From Mesorhizobium sp. (GTDB lineage: Bacteria; Pseudomonadota; Alphaproteobacteria; Rhizobiales; Rhizobiaceae): a DNA stretch of 64,000 nt. The position numbers and the translations under genes are program-made. The stretch spans positions 87,243-151,242 of the forward strand of contig SAQE01000008.1 in assembly GCA_004020545.1 (NCBI GenBank), read 5' to 3'. Under the pieces are notes generated by a model that saw only the letters and a list, made by a program, of their open reading frames with translations, searched no databases and was not told the origin of the DNA. Positions 1,091 to 10,444 of the stretch are shown one piece after another (within the stretch, counting starts at the first letter, position 1; the number at the start of each line of letters is the position of its first letter).

Positions 1091-1207
1091 TTACAGCGGC
1101 AGTGCCGCAAGCATCAGCCCCACGCCACCGGCGATCAAGATGGCAGCCGCCAATGCTTTCCGATGGCGCTCGAAAGTCGTCGGGGCCCGATCCCAATTGT
1201 AACGCAT
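1091..1207 (-). CDS. Small single-span membrane protein, 38 residues
   Basis: A short open frame encodes 38 residues: a charged N-terminus (MRYNWDRAPTTFERHRKA) followed by one hydrophobic segment of about 20 residues (LAAAILIAGGVGLMLAALPL) that runs to the C-terminus. A good GAGGGG ribosome site lies 8 nt upstream of the ATG. The layout is a positively charged cytoplasmic head and one membrane helix. It lies between prpE and the RiPP locus, on the strand of prpE. The function is unknown and no family was recognised. The ribosome site and clean topology make it likely to be translated, but its size leaves doubt. Confidence 0.5.
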   Translation of the reverse strand: MRYNWDRAPTTFERHRKALAAAILIAGGVGLMLAALPL

Positions 1208-1287
1208 ACTGTTCACCCCTCAAAAAACCCGGCCGGTTTCTAGCTTACCTAGGGGCAGTAAGGCAACACCGGACCTATTCGCCTCGC

Positions 1288-1316
1288 TTGACAGTGGGCG
1301 CGGCCACCCGTCATTT
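1288..1316 (+). promoter_or_regulatory. Candidate promoter of the RiPP operon
   Basis: TTGACA at 1288-1293 is a consensus -35 element. It is followed after 17 nt by TCATTT at 1311-1316, a poor -10 match. It would start transcription about 30 nt before the precursor start at 1351. The -35 is strong and the -10 weak, so this is tentative. Confidence 0.35.
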
Positions 1317-1350
1317 TTGGCGCCGTGGACTGTTCTCGGGGGATTTTCCA

Positions 1351-1449
1351 ATGAAGAGAACTTACGAAAAGCCGGTTCTGGTCAAGCGCGAAAAGCTATC
1401 GAGCGTCGTGGCGGACCTCGTAAGCGGTCCGATAGGTGTGACAGACTAG
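1351..1449 (+). CDS. Lasso-type RiPP precursor peptide, 32 residues
   Basis: This encodes a 32-residue peptide starting MKRTYEKPVLVKREKL and ending SGPIGVTD. The leader contains the YxxPxL motif (Tyr5, Pro8, Leu10) by which lasso-peptide B1 proteins recognise their precursors. A GGGGGA ribosome site lies upstream. Aligning the leader from Tyr5 with known lasso precursors puts the usual penultimate Thr at Ser18. Cleavage after Val19 would leave a 13-residue core from Val20. That core has Asp at positions 3 and 13 but no Asp or Glu at 7, 8 or 9, so a canonical lasso ring cannot form. The next three genes on this strand are B1, B2 and an HPr-kinase-like gene. Its role as a RiPP precursor is well supported; its mature structure is unknown. 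Confidence 0.8.
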   Translation: MKRTYEKPVLVKREKLSSVVADLVSGPIGVTD

Positions 1450-1531
1450 TCCCCTGACTGCCCGATATCAGGCAATGGACAGCGCCACGGCGCCGCGCTA
1501 ATTCCTCTCTCGGGCAAAAGGGAGCGGGCGC

Positions 1532-1819
1532 ATGGTTGAAATCGCCTCTGAAACGGTTCTGCGGATGGCGGACGACGCCTCCGTCCAGCATGTCGGCGAC
1601 GGTGCCGTCGTGCTTCTGGCGCGCAGCGGCCAGCTCTATACCTGCAACGGCACGACCGAAGCGTTCCTCGACAAGGTCGACGGCGCCCGCAACCTCGATC
1701 AGATCGTCGACCTCTTGTCGGACGAATTCGAGATCGACAAGGCGACGCTCGACGAGGACATGGCGGCGCTCGCCGCCGAACTGGTGGCGGAAGGCATCCT
1801 CGCCGACCCGGGCGCGTGA
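1532..1819 (+). CDS. PqqD-like RiPP recognition element protein (lasso B1)
   Basis: A 95-residue protein of the PqqD family. PqqD-like domains bind RiPP leader peptides; in lasso systems B1 presents the leader to the B2 protease. Features include the beta-hairpin region (GAVVLLARSGQLYTCNGTTEAFLDKVDG) and a helical C-terminus rich in acidic residues (FEIDKATLDEDMAALAAELVAEGIL), as in PqqD and B1 proteins. The start at 1532 has a GGGAG site about 10 nt upstream. It lies 82 nt after the precursor gene, and its stop overlaps the start of B2 (TGATG), indicating translational coupling. Confidence is high for the family and good for the RiPP role, given the neighbours. Confidence 0.85.
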   Translation: MVEIASETVLRMADDASVQHVGDGAVVLLARSGQLYTCNGTTEAFLDKVDGARNLDQIVDLLSDEFEIDKATLDEDMAALAAELVAEGILADPGA

Positions 1820-2253
1820 TGGCCGACGGACCGTTCCTGCGCGCGTTGTTCCGCACCCATTTGTGGCTTAGCGCCCGGCTGATGCCGGTGCTGATCGGCC
1901 AGCGCGACTTCGAGAGCGTGCTGAAATGGGCGCCGCTCGACGCGCCCACGCCTTATCGGGGCCTGCCTTCGGCCTACATCGTCACCAGCGTCAATCGCAC
2001 GGTCCGGCATCCCTGGCTGATGCGCGACCGCAGGTGCCTGCGGGAAGGGTTGCTCGGTTTCCGCTTCCTGCGCATGGCCGGTTTCGATCCCGAGCTGCGC
2101 TTCGGCGTCGATTCGAAATCGATGCATGCGCCGCGCCTGTCGGCGCATTGCTGGGTGTGCCTCGACGGCAAGCCGGTGGTCAGTGACAGCCTGCCCGGCA
2201 TGGTTGAGATCTATCGCCACCATGCCGACGCTGCCGGGGCGCGCGCTACTTGA
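1819..2253 (+). CDS. Lasso peptide biosynthesis B2 protein (transglutaminase-like leader protease)
   Basis: A 144-residue cysteine protease of the lasso B2 (transglutaminase-core) family, which removes the leader from a B1-bound precursor. The likely catalytic Cys73 is in RRCLREGLLGFRFLRMAG. The catalytic His110 is in SAHCWVCLDGKPVVSD, with Asp116 or Asp123 as the third member of the triad. The length matches stand-alone B2 proteins of split lasso systems. The ATG overlaps the B1 stop, and the stop overlaps the kinase TTG start, so B1, B2 and kinase form one tight operon. An in-frame GTG at 1816 is a less likely start. Confidence 0.85.
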   Translation: MADGPFLRALFRTHLWLSARLMPVLIGQRDFESVLKWAPLDAPTPYRGLPSAYIVTSVNRTVRHPWLMRDRRCLREGLLGFRFLRMAGFDPELRFGVDSKSMHAPRLSAHCWVCLDGKPVVSDSLPGMVEIYRHHADAAGARAT

Positions 2254-3236
2254 GTAGCACGGCAACCACCTTCTGCTATGACCTCAACGGCCAGGTCATC
2301 AGCATATCCGCGTCGCGCGCCGAGCTCTGGCCAAGCTTCGACCTGATGCTCGGCACCTTGCGCGTCAGCGACCCCGTCGAACCCGGCTTTCGCATCAATA
2401 TCGTCGAAACGTCGGCGCTGCCGGAAAGCCCGGAGGGGAAGCTCGCTTTCGACGGCGAGGTGCCGCTGGACGGCCATTGCCGGCTGATCGACGGTGGCGG
2501 CATCGTTCACCTGATCTTCCCTGCTCTTCAGATGGCCTCGGTCCATGCCGGCGAAGGCTGGGCTGAAATCCGTGTGCATCCCGACAGCAAAGTCAAATGG
2601 ACATTGCTGATGATGGTGCTGGATGCCGCGCTCGATGCGGGCGGACAGCACATGCTCCACACCGCCGGCCTCACTCTGCCGGACCGCGACGGCCTGGTTC
2701 TCATCCACGCCCCGAGCGGCACCGGCAAGTCGACGACATCGCTGGCACTGGCATCGCAAGGCTTCGGCCTTTGCTCGGACGATGTCATGATATTGCGGGC
2801 GGCATCGGATGGCATCACGGCCTGGGGCATGCCGCGCAAAGTGAAGGTCCATCGCAACACCGCGGCTATGCTGCCGTTCATTGCTCCCTGTCTCGGCGAC
2901 AGATGGGACGCCGAAGGCGAGCAGGCCGTCCCGCTGGAGCGTCTTGCCGAAATCATCCGCATCGAGGACACGATCGCGAGACCGGTTTCGGCGCTCCTTC
3001 ATCTTGCGCGTTCGGCCAACGCCGAAACCCGGCTGCTGCCCATGGCCAGGACCGATGCGATGGTGGCTTTGGCCACCGACAATGTCAGGACCGGCATGAC
3101 CGGTCTCTTGGCGATGCACAAACGGCGCATGGCGATGATCGCGGGACTGGTCAAGGCGGTCCCGACCTTTACCCTGGAAGTCGGCGGGAACCCGGCGGAT
3201 GCGGCGGCGCTGATCCGCGCCGCGTTGCCTCTCTAG
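2250..3236 (+). CDS. HPr-kinase/phosphorylase-like kinase of the RiPP operon
   Basis: A 328-residue protein with a P-loop (APSGTGKST, residues 154-162) and an acidic pair (CSDDVMILR, Asp177-Asp178), placed as in HprK-type serine kinases. An N-terminal domain of about 130 residues has no recognised motif. Relatives in some lasso clusters, such as the paeninodin kinase, phosphorylate a C-terminal Ser of the precursor. Here the candidate acceptors in the precursor tail are Ser25 and Thr31, which is an inference. Translation probably starts at a TTG overlapping the B2 stop by four bases. The only HPr nearby is the operon HPr at 7.5-7.8 kb, which offers another possible but less likely substrate. 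Confidence 0.75.
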   Translation: MSSTATTFCYDLNGQVISISASRAELWPSFDLMLGTLRVSDPVEPGFRINIVETSALPESPEGKLAFDGEVPLDGHCRLIDGGGIVHLIFPALQMASVHAGEGWAEIRVHPDSKVKWTLLMMVLDAALDAGGQHMLHTAGLTLPDRDGLVLIHAPSGTGKSTTSLALASQGFGLCSDDVMILRAASDGITAWGMPRKVKVHRNTAAMLPFIAPCLGDRWDAEGEQAVPLERLAEIIRIEDTIARPVSALLHLARSANAETRLLPMARTDAMVALATDNVRTGMTGLLAMHKRRMAMIAGLVKAVPTFTLEVGGNPADAAALIRAALPL

Positions 3237-3263
3237 ATTGGGCCTTTGTGGTGATCGATCTTC

Positions 3264-4289
3264 TCAGGCCGGATAGGGCCTCGGCCGGGCCAACCTTTGG
3301 ATCCAGCGGAAGGCGTCGCGGCTGAGGCGCGAGCGCATCTTTTCCCGTGAATTAACGCGAAGCAGCATGTTTCCGGTGATCAGCCATTTGGCGAGCCGTA
3401 TCGAAAGATCGGGCTTGATGTGATTGGCGAGCTCGATGGCGCGTGGTTCGTCGAACAAGCGCCCGGTCACGTTGAGCACCGTCGCCAGCTCGAGCTCGAT
3501 GCCTGTCATGCGCGCGGCCTCGAGCAGCCGCGCCTCCGCCTCCGGCGACCGCAGCGCGCGCACGCCCTGCAACACATCGACGCAAAGCTGCAGCCGGTGG
3601 AATTTGTGGCCGCCGGCCGCGTGAACGATGGCGATGGTGAGCAGCGCCGCCGGCGTGTCGGCCTCGCCGCCGTCGATCGCCTGCAACTCGCGGAAGCCGA
3701 GCGACAGCCGCCTGCGCATGCCGGTGTCGTGCACCAGGTTGCCGTGCAGCTCGATCAGCAGGCTGGCGTTTTCCTTCTCCAGCCATTTGAACTCCTGCAG
3801 CTCATGCGATTGCGCCTCGCCGCTGGCAAGCTCGAAGCCGCATTCGGCGATCGTCGTGTTGGCCGCGTCGATACCGGCGGGATCGACCAGGATGTCGATG
3901 TCGGTGTACGGCCGGTCGGCGGCATGGCGGTAGAGTTTTCGCGCGAAGACCGGTCCCTTGACGATGCGGGCCGCAACGCCTTTCGCCGCCAGCGCCTTCA
4001 TGATGCGATCGCCGTGATATTGCAGCAGCATCGACTGTCCGGTCGCGATCGTCGCCTGGTCGCGCAACTCGGCGAGCTTCTGCTGCAAGGCGGCATCTTG
4101 CGGCAGGTCGGCGTCGCCGCGTTCCCTGAGCTTGCGCAGCATGATCGGCAGCACGCCGTGGAATTCCGCGTTGGCAAGCAACGCCTTCAAGCTGCTCGCC
4201 GCAAGATTGCGGCCGCGATCACCCAGCGCTTCGGGATCGGCGAAGTCGAGCAGCAGTTTTTCTTCGGCAGGCGAGAGCGGAGGCAGCAT
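3264..4289 (-). CDS. Nucleotidyltransferase-fold protein (NTP_transf_5-like)
   Basis: A 341-residue protein with the nucleotidyltransferase-fold signature of the uncharacterised NTP_transf_5 family. The motif IVKGPVFARKLYRHAADRP is followed by YTDIDILV, giving a Lys111-Gly112 pair and the metal-binding Asp130-x-Asp132. Members of this family occur beside lasso and other RiPP genes with HPr-like kinases, where they are presumed tailoring enzymes; no reaction is proven here. The gene is convergent with the kinase gene (27 nt between stops) and follows dhaK on its own strand after 67 nt, so it may be transcribed with either context. The ATG at 4289 was chosen because upstream codons run into dhaK; its ribosome site is weak. 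Confidence 0.7.
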   Translation of the reverse strand: MLPPLSPAEEKLLLDFADPEALGDRGRNLAASSLKALLANAEFHGVLPIMLRKLRERGDADLPQDAALQQKLAELRDQATIATGQSMLLQYHGDRIMKALAAKGVAARIVKGPVFARKLYRHAADRPYTDIDILVDPAGIDAANTTIAECGFELASGEAQSHELQEFKWLEKENASLLIELHGNLVHDTGMRRRLSLGFRELQAIDGGEADTPAALLTIAIVHAAGGHKFHRLQLCVDVLQGVRALRSPEAEARLLEAARMTGIELELATVLNVTGRLFDEPRAIELANHIKPDLSIRLAKWLITGNMLLRVNSREKMRSRLSRDAFRWIQRLARPRPYPA

Positions 4290-4356
4290 CAACCGGGCAA
4301 CGTCGCGAATGGCATGCAAATTCGGCGAATATGGTCGCAGAAAAGCCCGCGCGAAG

Positions 4357-5343
4357 CTACATCCCCCAGCGCAGCGCCGCCGTATGCACCGGCGCGTCCC
4401 ACAGCGCCGTTGTCTCGTCGTCGAGCATGGCCAGCGTGATCGAGCAGCCGGCCATGTCGAGCGACGTGACATAGGAGCCGACCAGCGAGCGGGCCACCGT
4501 CACGCCGCTCCTCTCGAAGATTTTGCGGGCGCTGTTGTACATCAGGTAAAGCTCCATCGACGGCGTGGCGCCGAAGCCGTTGATGAAAAGCAGCGCCGGC
4601 CCTTTGGCGCGTTCGCCGAGGTCGCCGGTGATTGCCGTGCAGATCTCCTCGGCGATGGCGTCGGCGCTCTTCAGCGCATCGCGTCGCCTGCCGGGTTCGC
4701 CATGGATGCCGACGCCGAATTCCATCTCGCTGTCGCCGATCTCGAATGTCGGCTTGCCCGCCGCCGGCACGGTGCAACTGGTCAGCGCCACGCCCATCGA
4801 GCGTGTCGCGCCGTTGACGCGATCGCCGAGCGCCTTGAGCTGAGGCAAGGCCATGCCTTGCTCGGCCGCCGCGCCGAGGATCTTTTCCACCACCAGCGTA
4901 CCGGCGACGCCGCGCCGCCCGGTCGTATAGGAGGAGTTCTCGACCGCGACGTCGTCATTGGTCACCACCTGCAGCACGCCGTCCGACATTTCGGCGGCCA
5001 TGTCGAAGTTCATCACGTCGCCTTCGTAGTTCTTGACGATGAACAGGCAGCCGGCGCCGGTGTCGACCGCCTGCACCGCTGCCAGCATCTGGTCCGGCGT
5101 CGGCGAGGTGAACACCTGGCCGGGGCAGGCGGCGTCCAGCATGCCGTGGCCGACCAGCCCGCCATGCAGCGGCTCGTGGCCGGAGCCGCCGCCCGAGATC
5201 AGCGCCACCTTGCCCGGCTTGAGTTCCTTACGGCGGACGAATTTGTGTTCGTCGCCGAGCATGAGGATGTCCGAATGGGCGGCGGCGAAACCGTCGAGGC
5301 TTTCGGTGAGGATCGTATCCACCGTGTTGATGAACTTCTTCAT
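4357..5343 (-). CDS. dhaK: Dihydroxyacetone kinase subunit DhaK
   Basis: A 328-residue DhaK-type subunit, which binds dihydroxyacetone (or a related ketose) covalently through a histidine. It has the substrate loop ISGGGSGHEP (His56) and the hemiaminal histidine in FGVGIHGEPG (His214). It lacks a DhaL domain, so it needs the separate DhaL encoded upstream at 8.2-8.8 kb, as in PEP-dependent DhaKLM systems. A GGGAGGAC ribosome site precedes the ATG at 5343. It is the last kinase gene of the operon and is separated from DhaL/M by HPr, EI and a small gene. The exact sugar (DHA, erythrulose or another) is not determined. Confidence 0.88.
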   Translation of the reverse strand: MKKFINTVDTILTESLDGFAAAHSDILMLGDEHKFVRRKELKPGKVALISGGGSGHEPLHGGLVGHGMLDAACPGQVFTSPTPDQMLAAVQAVDTGAGCLFIVKNYEGDVMNFDMAAEMSDGVLQVVTNDDVAVENSSYTTGRRGVAGTLVVEKILGAAAEQGMALPQLKALGDRVNGATRSMGVALTSCTVPAAGKPTFEIGDSEMEFGVGIHGEPGRRRDALKSADAIAEEICTAITGDLGERAKGPALLFINGFGATPSMELYLMYNSARKIFERSGVTVARSLVGSYVTSLDMAGCSITLAMLDDETTALWDAPVHTAALRWGM

Positions 5344-5378
5344 GGCCGTCCTCCCGAACAGGCTTGGAATTGATATAC

Positions 5379-5422
5379 GCAATTCCGAACGGAAAACCGC
5401 TGCATACTTTTCCCGGAATTGC
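5379..5422. repeat. Short rhizobial-type palindrome, copy 1
   Basis: An imperfect palindrome with outer arms GCAATTCCG and CGGAATTGC and an inner part GGAAAACCG / TTTTCC around a TGCA centre. It lies between dhaK and the upstream gene of the operon. It shares the AAAA-n-TGCA-n-TTTT core with the copies at 22415 and 31955. Confidence 0.7.
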
Positions 5423-5427
5423 TTCAG

Positions 5428-5859
5428 TCAGCCGCTGCCCTTGCCGGCGATGCTGGTGATCTTCTGGATGAATTCGTTGATCGCCCGGTCGAGCGCAGCG
5501 TTCTGCCTGTCGTCGCCGAAATCCGGCACGATGAGCGAGACGTGGCGCGTCTTGCGTGGACCTGAAGTCGCCGACATCTTGCCTGGATGCGCCTGGTGAT
5601 AGGCGGCCATGAACTGGTCGCGCTCGGCCGGACTGAAATGGCAGACGGAAAAGATAGAGGGCAGATGCTTTGACGGGATCGGTATCGAATAGGCCGGACT
5701 GGAGATCTGCGTGACGAAGCTGCGATGCTTGCCGAGCGCATCGGCAAGGCGTTGGCGCATGCCCGATGGCCGCTGGTCGATGACCTGCGACAGGATCGTC
5801 TTGTAGGCGCGGATCGCGTCTTCCGAGCCGGCTTCCTGTATCTTGGCTGCCTTGGCCAT
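5428..5859 (-). CDS. Conserved hypothetical protein with HTH-like region, in dha operon
   Basis: A 143-residue protein starting MAKAAKIQEAGSEDAIRAY. The segment RQRLADALGKHRSFVTQIS (about residues 35-53) resembles the first helices of Xre-type DNA-binding domains, and PIPSKHLPSIFSVCHFSPAE follows. No family was named with certainty. It starts 7 nt after the stop of the EI gene, so it is co-transcribed with it. It is the only gene in the operon that looks like a possible DNA-binding regulator. The first Met of MAKA was chosen because upstream in-frame codons lie inside EI. The regulatory role is inference. Confidence 0.6.
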   Translation of the reverse strand: MAKAAKIQEAGSEDAIRAYKTILSQVIDQRPSGMRQRLADALGKHRSFVTQISSPAYSIPIPSKHLPSIFSVCHFSPAERDQFMAAYHQAHPGKMSATSGPRKTRHVSLIVPDFGDDRQNAALDRAINEFIQKITSIAGKGSG

Positions 5860-5866
5860 GCCGCGC

Positions 5867-7441
<1,575 letters not shown>

Positions 7442-7482
7442 GGCCCGCATTCCTCGCGGATGGCGGATATGGTTTGCCCGTC

Positions 7483-7785
7483 TCAAGCCGACCGGGCATG
7501 ATCCCTGTCCTCGTCGAAATCGCGCCGCACCAGGTCGACCAGCGCGCCGACCGCTTGCTCAGCGCCGTCGCCTCGCGCCCTTATGTGCAGCATCGTCCCT
7601 TTCGGCGCCTTGGCTGCCATCACCTTGACGATGCTTTTGGCGTCAAACCAGGGACCGTTGGCCGCCACCGCCACCTCCACCTCGGCGGCGAACGACTTGG
7701 CGAGCTTGGTGAACTTCACCGAAGGGCGTGCATGCAGGCCCACCTCGTGGGTGATCAGGACAGTGGCTTCGGCGGATGCTGACAT
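7483..7785 (-). CDS. HPr phosphocarrier protein of the dha operon
   Basis: A 100-residue HPr. The phosphorylation site is His18 in VGLHARPSVKF, and the regulatory-type serine position is present (AKSIVKVMA, Ser51). It carries phosphate from EI to DhaM. It lies between dhaM (19 nt) and ptsI (41 nt) in the same direction. Being dedicated to a dha operon, it is probably distinct from the PTS-Ntr HPr of rhizobia. The HPr-kinase-like gene of the RiPP locus is about 4 kb away, but no functional link is shown. Confidence 0.88.
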   Translation of the reverse strand: MSASAEATVLITHEVGLHARPSVKFTKLAKSFAAEVEVAVAANGPWFDAKSIVKVMAAKAPKGTMLHIRARGDGAEQAVGALVDLVRRDFDEDRDHARSA

Positions 7786-7804
7786 TCAGTCGGTTCCCGT
7801 TCGT

Positions 7805-8194
7805 TCACGACGGCGACAATTCATGCGCCGTCGCCACCACTTCCTTGAGCGAGGCGCCGCCGGAAGATTCCGTCGCCGCCATCACCGCGCCCTCGACGAT
7901 CGGCGCGTTGCAGACGACGATCTTGTGGGAGCGGGGCTCGCCGATCATCTCGACCGCCATCTCGCTGTTGGTCTCGGCGCCGCCGAGATCGACCAGGATC
8001 GCGACGCCCGCTTCCGACCAGGCCTTGTCGATCGCGCCCATGATCGCCTCGACGCTCGTGCCGAGCCCGCCATGGCCGTTTCCGCCGCACCACGCAAGCG
8101 GCACTTCGTCGCCCACCATCTGGCGCACCATGTCGGCTGTGCCTTCGGCGACCAGCGGCGAATGCGATACGATGACGATACCGACATTGCTCAT
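7805..8194 (-). CDS. dhaM: DhaM phosphotransferase subunit (EIIA-Man type)
   Basis: A 129-residue EIIA-mannose-type protein. The phospho-histidine His11 is in VGIVIVSHSPLVAEG, and GGNGHGGLGTSVEAI and VDLGGAETNSEMA are typical DhaM segments. In PEP-dependent dihydroxyacetone kinases DhaM rephosphorylates the ADP bound to DhaL. It is a single-domain DhaM, with HPr and EI as separate proteins rather than fused. The start overlaps the dhaL stop (ATGA), so the two are translationally coupled. Confidence 0.9.
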   Translation of the reverse strand: MSNVGIVIVSHSPLVAEGTADMVRQMVGDEVPLAWCGGNGHGGLGTSVEAIMGAIDKAWSEAGVAILVDLGGAETNSEMAVEMIGEPRSHKIVVCNAPIVEGAVMAATESSGGASLKEVVATAHELSPS

Positions 8195-8793
8195 CAGCGA
8201 CCCTCGACGGTTTCAGCGACTGCGCGCACCAGAAGCGCGGTCGAGCGCGCCCCGGCGTCCATATGCCCGATCGAGCGCTCTCCCAGGAAGGAGGCCCGCC
8301 CGCGCAGGGCCTTCATCGGCACGGTGGCGTCCGCCGCCTTGTCGGCGACATCGGCGATCTCGCTACCCGTCTTGCCTTGCGCCAGCGCCTCATACACCGG
8401 TTGCAGCACGTCGAGCATGGTTTTTTGTCCGGGTTGCGATTTGCCGCGCGCGGCGACCGCTTCGACCGCCTTGCCGAATGCCGCCGTCAGCGCGGCACGG
8501 TCGGGTGCTGCGGGCAGTTCCTTGCCGAGCGCCATGAACAGCGTGCCGAACAACGGACCCGAAGCGCCGCCGACCGTCATCACCAGCTTGGTGCCGACTG
8601 CCTTCAGCGCGTCCGGCAGCGGCTTCGCGGCGATTGCCTCCGCCTCGGCGCGCACGGCCTCGAAGCCGCGCCTCATATTGAGCCCATGGTCACCGTCGCC
8701 GATAGCCTGATCGAGCGCGGTCAGCTCGTCGGCATGCGCCGCGACCGTATCCGTCGCCGCCGCGATCAGTCTGGAGAAATCGGAAGCGGCCAT
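8194..8793 (-). CDS. dhaL: DhaL, ADP/ATP-binding subunit of dihydroxyacetone kinase
   Basis: A 199-residue DhaL domain protein. The magnesium-nucleotide site is AIGDGDHGLNM (Asp33-x-Asp35), followed by VGGASGPLFGTLFMALG and SQPGQKTMLDVLQP. It pairs with DhaK (4357-5343) and with DhaM, whose gene overlaps its stop. It follows the fused kinase gene after 10 nt. The chosen ATG at 8793 begins MAASDFSRLI. Confidence 0.9.
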   Translation of the reverse strand: MAASDFSRLIAAATDTVAAHADELTALDQAIGDGDHGLNMRRGFEAVRAEAEAIAAKPLPDALKAVGTKLVMTVGGASGPLFGTLFMALGKELPAAPDRAALTAAFGKAVEAVAARGKSQPGQKTMLDVLQPVYEALAQGKTGSEIADVADKAADATVPMKALRGRASFLGERSIGHMDAGARSTALLVRAVAETVEGR

Positions 8794-8803
8794 TCTCGGT
8801 CCT

Positions 8804-10444
8804 TCACGCCGGGGCGAACATGGCCGCCACGGCCGAGAACACCTCGGCGACCGCAAAGGCGCCCGGGTCCGCTATGTCAAGCTGCCGGCCGATATAGGCG
8901 GAACGGCCGGCCTTCGCCTTCCGCATCGCGGCGGTCGCTTCCGCGCCGCGCCGCGCGGCCGCCGCGGCCGCTTCCAGCCCGCTTGCGTCGAACGCTTTCA
9001 GCGCCGGCTCCAAGGCGTCGACCATGGTGCGGTCGCCAACCTTCGCGCCGCCGTAGAAAGTCATCCGGTCGAGGCCTGCGAGCAACGCCATGCCGAGCGG
9101 CGCACCGCCCTTGAGTGACTGCGCCGCCGCAGTGAAGAAGATCGACAACAAAACGCCACTCGAACCACCCATCGAGGTGCCCAATATATCGCCGATTGTG
9201 GCGAGAGTCGCGCCCCGGTCGGCGAGCGGAAGCGTGTCGGCGCGGTCGAGCACGCTGCGCGCGCCGGTTGCTACTGTCGACCCTGTGTCGCCGTCGCCCG
9301 CCTTGGCGTCGAGGCTGTTCAGGGGTTCTTCGAGCGAGATCAGCTTCTCGCAGATCGCGGTGATCAGCCGCTCGACGCCGGCATCGCGGCTGGTCGTCTT
9401 GGCGGCGTCGCGGCTGGCAGGCTTGGCGACCGCCACGACGACCGGTTGGCGAACCGGCTTCGCCGGTAGCCATGCATGCGGGCCGACCGGCGCCGAGAGC
9501 GCCGCCTCGCGGTCCGCGTTCAGCCTGATCAGCGACAGCGAAAAGCCGTTCATGTTGAGCGCGGTCATCAGGTGCCCAGGCCCGATCGTCAGCGCCACCG
9601 CTCTTGCCAGCGACGAAGACAGCACGGCATTCGCGATCAGCGACATTTCGAGCGGCGGCACCGATCCGAGATTGTTGATCAGCAGGGCGTAACGGCTGTG
9701 CGGATCGAGCCGCGCCGCGAAGCGTTCCGCCATGATGGCGACCAGCTTGCTGGCGGCCTCCAGGGCGATGCGCTCGACGCCCGGCTCGCCATGGATGCCG
9801 AGGCCGAGTTCGCCATCGTCGGCGCCGAAGCGATCCTCATGCGCCTGTCCGGGGATCGAGCAGGAGGAGAGCGAGATGCCCAGCGAAACGATATCCTTAG
9901 CCGCCGCGCGGGCCGCCGCGGCAACCGATGCCAGGTCATGCCCGGATTCCGACAGATGCCCGGCGATCTTGTGCACGAACAGCGTGCCGGCGACGCCGCG
10001 CGGCTGCGCGATGTCGGGAAGGGCGATGTCGTCGGCGACGATCACCATCTCGACCGCAAAACCTTCGGCGCGCGCCTTTTCGGCGGCGAGGCCGAAATTG
10101 AGGCGATCGCCGGTGTAGTTCTTGACGATCAAAAGGCAGCCGGCCGGCCCGGTCGTCGCGCGGATCGCCGCCAGCACCGCCTCGACGCTGGGCGAAGCGA
10201 AGATCTCGCCCGACACGGCGGCGGTCAGCATTCCGGCGCCGACGAACCCGGCATGCGAAGGCTCGTGCCCGGCGCCGCCGCCGGAAACGATGCTGACCTT
10301 CGTCTTGTCCCAGTCGGCGCGCAGCACAACCTTGATCTCCGGGTAGCCGTCGAGGCGCGCCAGCGTGCCGGAACCGGCGGTGGCGAGAAAGCCGTCCAGC
10401 GCTTCGGTGACGATCGAGTCCTTGCGGTTGAAAAAGTGCTTCAT
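8804..10444 (-). CDS. Fused DhaK-DhaL dihydroxyacetone-type kinase (ATP-dependent form)
   Basis: A 546-residue single-chain kinase. The N-terminal DhaK domain (about 1-330) has SGGGAGHEPSHAG and GLGIHGEPGVER. A linker of basic/alanine-rich repeats (KPASRDAAKTTSRDAG) leads to a C-terminal DhaL domain (about 365-546) with DAKAGDGDTGSTVATGA and MGGSSGVLLSIFF. Fused forms are ATP-dependent kinases of dihydroxyacetone, and homologues act on erythrulose or related ketoses. It is encoded in the same operon as the PEP-dependent DhaK/L/M, so two alternative kinases serve one importer. The ATG at 10444 is preferred over upstream codons. Confidence 0.88.
   Translation of the reverse strand: MKHFFNRKDSIVTEALDGFLATAGSGTLARLDGYPEIKVVLRADWDKTKVSIVSGGGAGHEPSHAGFVGAGMLTAAVSGEIFASPSVEAVLAAIRATTGPAGCLLIVKNYTGDRLNFGLAAEKARAEGFAVEMVIVADDIALPDIAQPRGVAGTLFVHKIAGHLSESGHDLASVAAAARAAAKDIVSLGISLSSCSIPGQAHEDRFGADDGELGLGIHGEPGVERIALEAASKLVAIMAERFAARLDPHSRYALLINNLGSVPPLEMSLIANAVLSSSLARAVALTIGPGHLMTALNMNGFSLSLIRLNADREAALSAPVGPHAWLPAKPVRQPVVVAVAKPASRDAAKTTSRDAGVERLITAICEKLISLEEPLNSLDAKAGDGDTGSTVATGARSVLDRADTLPLADRGATLATIGDILGTSMGGSSGVLLSIFFTAAAQSLKGGAPLGMALLAGLDRMTFYGGAKVGDRTMVDALEPALKAFDASGLEAAAAAARRGAEATAAMRKAKAGRSAYIGRQLDIADPGAFAVAEVFSAVAAMFAPA

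Follow-up and report, generated by a model that had tools for sequence, protein, structure and literature searches.

The closest described relatives of the locus treated here are ribosomally synthesized and post-translationally modified peptides (RiPPs) which carry phosphate. Linear Polyphosphorylated Peptides (LPP) were reported by Popov et al. in May 2026 and are stated to be restricted to Bacillota (PMC13381572). LppK, as well as BsfK from the cluster of the Bradymonas phosphorylated lasso peptide Bsf, is described to phosphorylate Ser3 of the core (PMC10368454, PMC13381572). For BsfK, the conserved residues are listed as H-G-G-G-K-S-D-D, and the BsfA leader features Y-17, P-14 and L-12 (PMC10368454). 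In the paeninodin and pseudomycoidin systems, an HPr-kinase homologue encoded beside the B genes targets the C-terminal Ser of what becomes a lasso peptide; pseudomycoidin additionally involves a nucleotidyltransferase reported to decorate the phosphate with one or two hexoses (PMC8498205). Here, these systems are compared with a locus of Mesorhizobium sp., located in a stretch of 64,000 nucleotides (assembly GCA_004020545.1, contig SAQE01000008.1, positions 87,243 to 151,242) which is called the window in the following. As judged from sequence comparisons, this locus probably encodes the maturation enzymes of a linear RiPP system that is related to lasso peptides but independent of a cyclase, in which kinase, B2 and nucleotidyltransferase steps would serve precursors dispersed over the genome. 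The open-licence literature, searched by title and start of the abstract, yielded the Bacillota LPP paper along with lasso or unrelated ones, and no cyclase-free B1-B2-kinase system in Rhizobiales.

An earlier sequence-only reading of the window had described a precursor, B1, B2, an HPr-kinase-like gene and a convergent NTP_transf_5 gene, and all five were recovered where it had placed them. The features of the locus, in window positions, are:

1288..1293 (+): candidate -35 element TTGACA of the precursor's own promoter, a motif recurrent upstream of precursor genes
1351..1449 (+): gene of the 32-aa precursor peptide; leader predicted as residues 1-21 and core as DLVSGPIGVTD
1532..1819 (+): B1, discrete RiPP recognition element (RRE), PqqD-like, 95 aa; PF05402 43.3 bits, over the cut-off
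1819..2253 (+): B2 of 144 aa, a leader peptidase resembling transglutaminases, with Cys73 and His110; NF033537 69.3 bits, cut-off 33
2250..3236 (+): HprK/PEPCK-fold peptide kinase, 328 aa; His137, SGTGKS at 156-161, Asp177-Asp178
3264..4313 (-): convergent gene of an NTP_transf_5 nucleotidyltransferase, starting with TTG at 4313 or with ATG at 4289; PF14907 86.9 bits, cut-off 31.2

The lasso features present are the YxxPxL leader motif, which the window precursor and its family share in the lasso form [Y/W]xxPx[L/V/I], a predicted discrete RRE (B1) and a predicted B2 peptidase. By two tested features, cyclase and ring acceptor, the locus is not a lasso locus. The absence of a cyclase from the 64 kb, noted by the sequence-only reading, was borne out by the lack of any Asn_synthase match inside the window. 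Assuming the predicted cut site, core positions 7-9 of the window precursor are I7, G8 and V9 and offer no ring acceptor, where a lasso core closes its ring between residue 1 and an Asp or Glu at 7-9 and has a tail besides; Asp or Glu occurs at these positions in 3 of 93 Mesorhizobium cores.

The precursors of this system are mostly found away from the enzymes. In a survey of 146 Mesorhizobium genomes, 97 of which contain an orthologue of the window kinase, a leader profile (E <= 0.05) matched 3-28 copies per genome (median 8, total 878) in all 97 locus-positive genomes, compared with 1-2 copies each in 5 of the 49 locus-negative ones. The window's own genome holds seven copies at this threshold, distributed over four contigs as one pair, one triplet and two singles. 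The window precursor itself scored 67 bits (E 1.1e-17) against this profile, of whose 15 rows it is one. In a sample of the family, leader matches were obtained in 18/18 kinase-positive and 0/16 kinase-negative genomes, with 10 of the 18 having supplied sequences to the model, which favours matches there. A precursor adjoins B1 in only 25 of the 97 Mesorhizobium loci (the locus of G077, fetched twice, being counted once) and is absent there in 72; it lies beyond the nucleotidyltransferase gene in 11, and 63 loci have one at neither site, some of the stretches ending before the second. The earlier picture of a five-gene set with a single precursor thus gives way to a dispersed family, which is probably served by the locus. 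Ten precursors in tandem were found at one locus (L201).

The hexamer TTGACA occurs in 47 of 66 stretches of 160 bp upstream of precursor genes, the window's included, compared with 2.7 expected from shuffling; orthologues are among the 66, hence they are not independent. This recurrence suggests that each dispersed copy is a gene driven by its own promoter. A generic scan of positions 1150-3400, by a rule that also requires a TATAAT-like second hexamer, gave a single terminator-like site, at chance level, and no promoter preceding the precursor or B1. Most precursors fall under current family cut-offs, with one of seven scanned family members reaching one.

For the anatomy of these peptides, 153 distinct precursors were analyzed, all of them with the YxxP motif and a start codon at most 15 residues ahead of the Tyr; matches lacking either were dropped. 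They are about 26-45 aa long and share the leader consensus MKKxYEKPVLxKRxKLSxVTA, with 17 residues from the Tyr to the predicted cut site. The lasso precursor encoded on this contig and BsfA have the same spacing, which was counted in favor of a lasso-related maturation unit. In the window precursor, the register is Y(-17), P(-14), L(-12) and Ala(-1). Mesorhizobium leaders have Ala(-1) in 90/93 and Val or Thr at -2 in 82/93; Val stands there in 43/93, and Bsf is reported to allow Ile or Val at this position (PMC10368454). Core statistics omit three family rows with cores of more than 40 residues and the Chloroflexi row L274. Apart from one empty outlier, Mesorhizobium cores comprise 5-14 hypervariable residues. 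A Ser is present in all 92 non-empty ones and located at position 3-5 in 88. In 5,000 shuffles of the cores (ignoring their relatedness and omitting the empty one), a Ser came to stand there in 37-42 on average and in 58 at most. A Ser at this place agrees with kinases of the Ser3 type and differs from the C-terminal Ser targeted in paeninodin. The leaders show a pN/pS of 0.26 (388 pairs) and the cores one of 0.99 (115 pairs), the pairs not being independent; constrained leaders with free cores are the usual precursor signature.

All four enzymes of the locus are under purifying selection, with omega values for B1 of 0.06-0.22 across eight comparisons. B1 reached 37 bits with the lasso PqqD model NF033530 and stayed under its cut-off of 70. 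The Cys73 and His110 of B2 are kept in 35/35 aligned B2 proteins of the window type and in 11/11 of the lasso type, and one site separates the two groups: it reads HC in the window type (Cys in all 35) and HA in the Mesorhizobium lasso type (Ala in all 11). Likewise, a B2 tree split the Mesorhizobium lasso proteins from the window type (100/100); as it is unrooted with long branches, it does not show the nearest lasso B2. The kinase has the His, the P-loop Lys and the Asp-Asp of HprK-type peptide kinases (PadeK, BsfK, LppK), and of the three Gly on the BsfK list it has two, the first Gly of BsfK being Ala154 here. Its kinship to HprK comes from the sequence profile; the Foldseek and VIA lists as displayed contain PEPCK chains, and the absence of HprK from them is no evidence. 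HPr-rel-A, followed as a lead, gave no paper in the open-licence literature.

Kinase locus and lasso cyclase occur largely, yet not strictly, together in Mesorhizobium. The cyclase was counted in 102 of the 146 genomes, including one match under the cut-off (G051; 101 over it). Both are present in 91 genomes, the locus only in 6, the cyclase only in 11 and neither in 38 (Fisher p 6e-19, uncorrected for ancestry). Hence, the always co-inherited cyclase that the sequence-only reading would have taken as counterevidence was not observed. Completeness is 99-100% for four of the locus-only genomes (G016, G033, G050, G126) and only 79% for G122, while the cyclase gene of G078 is broken. In the cyclase-less G016, G050 and G126, purifying selection on the enzymes holds (omega 0.13-0.27). 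The cyclase gene of G078 (L217) has an in-frame stop and pieces in different frames; matches to B1, B2 and kinase of that lasso cluster persist, and the window-type genes of this genome are open, unlike the broken cyclase gene.

Outside the genus, even draws of 394 family and 397 order genomes were taken from larger groups. Eighteen of the former (9 further genera) and 11 of the latter (6 further families) yielded a kinase relative, altogether 29 genomes from 7 families. In the stretches around these kinases (6-8 kb per side, or less where the contig ended), B1, B2 and the nucleotidyltransferase each had a relative in 17/18 family and 11/11 order cases; B1 and B2 relatives each occur in 28 of the 29 stretches, and both in 27. 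None of the 29 contains a cyclase match, and whole-genome searches with NF033535 at the NCBI cut-off gave no lasso cyclase in the 18 family or the 11 order genomes (the positive control G019 was detected in the order search). Ten cyclase matches under the cut-off were inspected: one was the broken G078 cluster and nine (three genus, six family) lacked a convincing adjoining B1 or B2. The flanks of such matches were inspected in 6/18 family and 5/11 order genomes. The survey proposed earlier, a search for the gene set in Rhizobiales with a check for cyclases, turned out differently by rank: usually together in Mesorhizobium, without an over-cut-off cyclase in the kinase-bearing genomes outside it. 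The claim that these enzymes process a linear peptide with no cyclase involved gains from the latter and from the few ring acceptors, and it has to be weighed against the canonical cyclase in the window's own genome.

The following course of maturation is proposed. B1 would bind the Y(-17)xxP(-14)xL(-12) leader of many small precursors in trans, the adjoining one being one among many, and as a discrete RRE it would serve kinase and peptidase alike. The HprK-fold kinase may then phosphorylate the Ser 3-5 residues past the leader, which, by analogy with the Ser3 kinases, we regard as likely. B2 would cleave after Ala(-1), and the NTP_transf_5 protein may extend the phosphate with a sugar or some other group. 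For this last step, the transfer of a sugar is a tentative assignment, falling somewhat short of probable. It draws on the pseudomycoidin analogy, by which a sugar on the phosphate appears more plausible than the nucleotidylation suggested by the sequence-only reading, for which no support was obtained (PMC8498205). The predicted products are short linear peptides of about 5-14 residues in Mesorhizobium, variable in sequence with a conserved modified Ser. That they stay linear is judged to be highly likely.

Several observations weigh against this proposal. The precursors analyzed came from the loci in hand and included many best-scoring matches instead of all 878. Family cores are looser (n=56, up to 24 residues, Ser in 46): Ser stands at 3-5 in 26/56 (shuffle means 15-16, maxima 25 and 28), and Asp or Glu at 7-9 in 10/56. 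NF033535 represents one cyclase family, and the association of presence and absence is confounded by shared ancestry. One of the 11 order genomes (G606) has, on a different contig, a cyclase match below the cut-off (255.6 bits) next to a B1 and a kinase, which together probably form a divergent lasso cluster; a second genome (G687) features a 275-bit cyclase match with no B1 or kinase neighbors within 1.5 kb. Matches to an ABC exporter were found in just 2/18 family and 2/11 order stretches with a single query (other exporters were not searched), so export is unexplained by the locus. Finally, where both are on one contig (80 Mesorhizobium genomes), the lasso cyclase lies at a median of 28.3 kb from the locus (range 11.3-34.9).

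This proximity leads to the alternative which survives best, while still being improbable: that the locus is an accessory of the neighboring lasso cluster, its precursors being cyclized in trans or its kinase and nucleotidyltransferase decorating the lasso peptide. Of the eight Asn_synthase matches in the window's own genome, one is on the window's contig, upstream. The gene of this lasso cyclase (761.8 bits, cut-off 525) stops about 26 kb short of the window start and about 27 kb short of the window precursor; its distance from the locus is 27-29 kb. It belongs to a complete, separate lasso cluster, which comprises a precursor, B1, B2, the cyclase, a kinase-like gene and an ABC transporter as well as, by eye, an NTP_transf_5-like gene; many glycosyltransferase and exopolysaccharide-type genes (by eye from translations) fill the space between it and the window locus. 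The two units are on opposite strands in 79 of the 80 contig pairs, and this constant arrangement together with the 91 shared genomes would suit an accessory. On the other hand, the six genomes with the locus and without an intact cyclase, the eleven with the reverse, the 29 outside genomes and the cores mostly lacking a ring acceptor are all contrary to it. Moreover, the lasso cluster owns its B1, B2, kinase and nucleotidyltransferase, to which the window enzymes are 22-34% identical across 62-84 alignable residues (B1: 22% over 76 residues). The lasso precursor features Tyr(-17), Thr(-2), Gly1 and Asp9. Since the Tyr motif is common to both Mesorhizobium systems, the Tyr/Trp choice of Bacillota cannot separate them here. 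Precursors found by pattern in 30/30 cyclase loci examined all end in Ser, which fits the requirement of a paeninodin-type kinase; with such a precursor, the upstream cluster fits that type better than the window locus does (PMC8498205). In the window's own genome, the cluster occupies C177:55000-72000 (L009 1814-9317), and its predicted core is GGAGTTALDAAFPAHTPFDQLTFS, with Asp9 and a C-terminal Ser.

Nearly as improbable is a dispersed-peptide system in which the modification is not phosphorylation and the kinase-fold enzyme and the nucleotidyltransferase prepare another coupling, perhaps with an AMP-binding ligase. An adenylate-forming ligase (PF00501), composed of an AMP-binding and a C-terminal domain, is indeed encoded around the kinase in 11/18 family and 2/11 order genomes. 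The loci concerned are L200-L204, L206, L210-L212, L214, L215, L293 and L297, with more than 45% identity to the L200 copy across genera. In the 146 Mesorhizobium genomes, such a ligase was not found at E <= 1e-70, in a search without a positive control, and a general step is thus unlikely; on the same terms, it was dismissed as an in-trans partner in this genus. Furthermore, characterized kinases of this kind are described to phosphorylate Ser (PMC8498205, PMC10368454, PMC13381572).

A third explanation, by which the kinase is an HPr kinase and B1, B2 and precursor are unrelated neighbors, appears very unlikely. Next to the locus, window positions 4357-8856 (-) contain genes for DhaK, a phosphotransferase system (PTS) enzyme I-like protein and an HPr-family protein, with DhaM/DhaL-like genes by eye. 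The HPr-family protein at 7486-7785 (-), about 4 kb downstream of the kinase in this DhaK/PTS group, scored 65 bits with TIGR01003 (cut-off 47.9), and an HPr is located near the kinase in 11/14 Mesorhizobium loci (some other stretches being short or ending early). Against such a role, HPr is present in 0/29 stretches outside the genus, where B1 and B2 are each kept in 28. The kinase gene also overlaps that of B2 by start and stop, and the kinase reached 19 bits with the HPr kinase equivalog, whose cut-off is 240. A decaying lasso-cluster remnant with a lost cyclase, which the 72/97 loci lacking a precursor beside B1 might suggest, is scarcely credible given the purifying selection on all four enzymes, the recurrence of the block in seven families and the precursors kept elsewhere in every locus-positive genome searched (97/97 and 18/18).

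The proposed cyclase-independent maturation unit invites comparison with the known systems. As far as its sequence tells, the locus is LPP-like in working, the differences being the peptidase, the leader motif, the number of precursors and the taxon. Common to both are a discrete RRE with a YxxP leader, an HprK-like kinase, an NTP transferase and the lack of a macrolactam cyclase (PMC13381572). Likewise, LPP clusters are described as often accompanied by a lasso cluster in the same genome and as lying near polysaccharide loci; phospho-Ser is at core position 3 in LPP (PMC13381572), and the conserved Ser at 3-5 here would carry the phosphate. In contrast, LPP employ a signal peptidase I (SpI)-like enzyme of the SipW type and an MsbA-like transporter (PMC13381572), whereas the window block features a B2-type peptidase (no SpI query was searched) and no transporter among its genes. 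LPP clusters reportedly hold 1-3 precursors of 35-200 aa with the motif YxxPxVLxHQxIxFETxxS, and their hosts are Bacillota (PMC13381572); in the present case, the precursors are dispersed, of about 26-45 aa and up to 28 per genome, the consensus given above departs from that motif, and the hosts are Hyphomicrobiales. With Bsf, the locus shares B1, B2 and a kinase, the leader register Y(-17), P(-14), L(-12) and an early core Ser, which is phosphorylated at position 3 in Bsf; it differs in that Bsf is reported as a lasso peptide cluster (PMC10368454). Its kinase and nucleotidyltransferase beside B genes recall pseudomycoidin, with the difference in target and product mentioned at the outset (PMC8498205).

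The statement of the sequence-only reading that the product would be of an undescribed kind has since been overtaken, as a similar cyclase-free, linear, phosphorylated RiPP was published from Bacillota (PMC13381572). The present locus would extend such linear phosphorylated lasso relatives to a group of Alphaproteobacteria including nodule symbionts. It does so with a different build, in which B2 replaces the signal peptidase and numerous mini-precursors are dispersed or arranged in tandem. Genome mining that requires a cyclase would overlook loci of this kind, the more so with precursors mostly under family cut-offs. The cores are short enough for outright synthesis, which makes acceptance by the kinase and the separation of the two YxxP RRE systems directly testable.

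Prochlorosin-type RiPPs also combine one enzyme set with many precursors having a conserved leader and a hypervariable core, but use a lanthipeptide synthetase and other chemistry. On balance, we lean slightly towards a separate RiPP class of Hyphomicrobiales, in which one cyclase-free B1-B2-kinase-nucleotidyltransferase locus would act in trans on genome-wide mini-precursors (up to 28 per genome) to give ultra-short linear peptides with phosphate or phospho-sugar on one conserved Ser, a natural combinatorial phosphopeptide system. An adenylate-forming ligase or an S74 fusion in some relatives is counted within this class with the same slight preference. The fusions were observed at L252 (G356) and L256 (G496), where leader and short core are joined to a Peptidase_S74 domain (30.9 and 24.1 bits, cut-off 22); a further S74-like fusion at L294 (G688) was assigned by eye, the scanned 60-aa fragment giving no Pfam match. 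Peptidase_S74 is a self-cleaving tail-fibre chaperone domain, which could thereby define where the core ends on its C-terminal side. In addition, dispersed precursors at L162, L165, L179, L184, L185 and L194 share the core A(A/T/L)P(S/A)SGF(T/S)F, which is nearly constant where other cores are hypervariable, and this group may have a fixed role.

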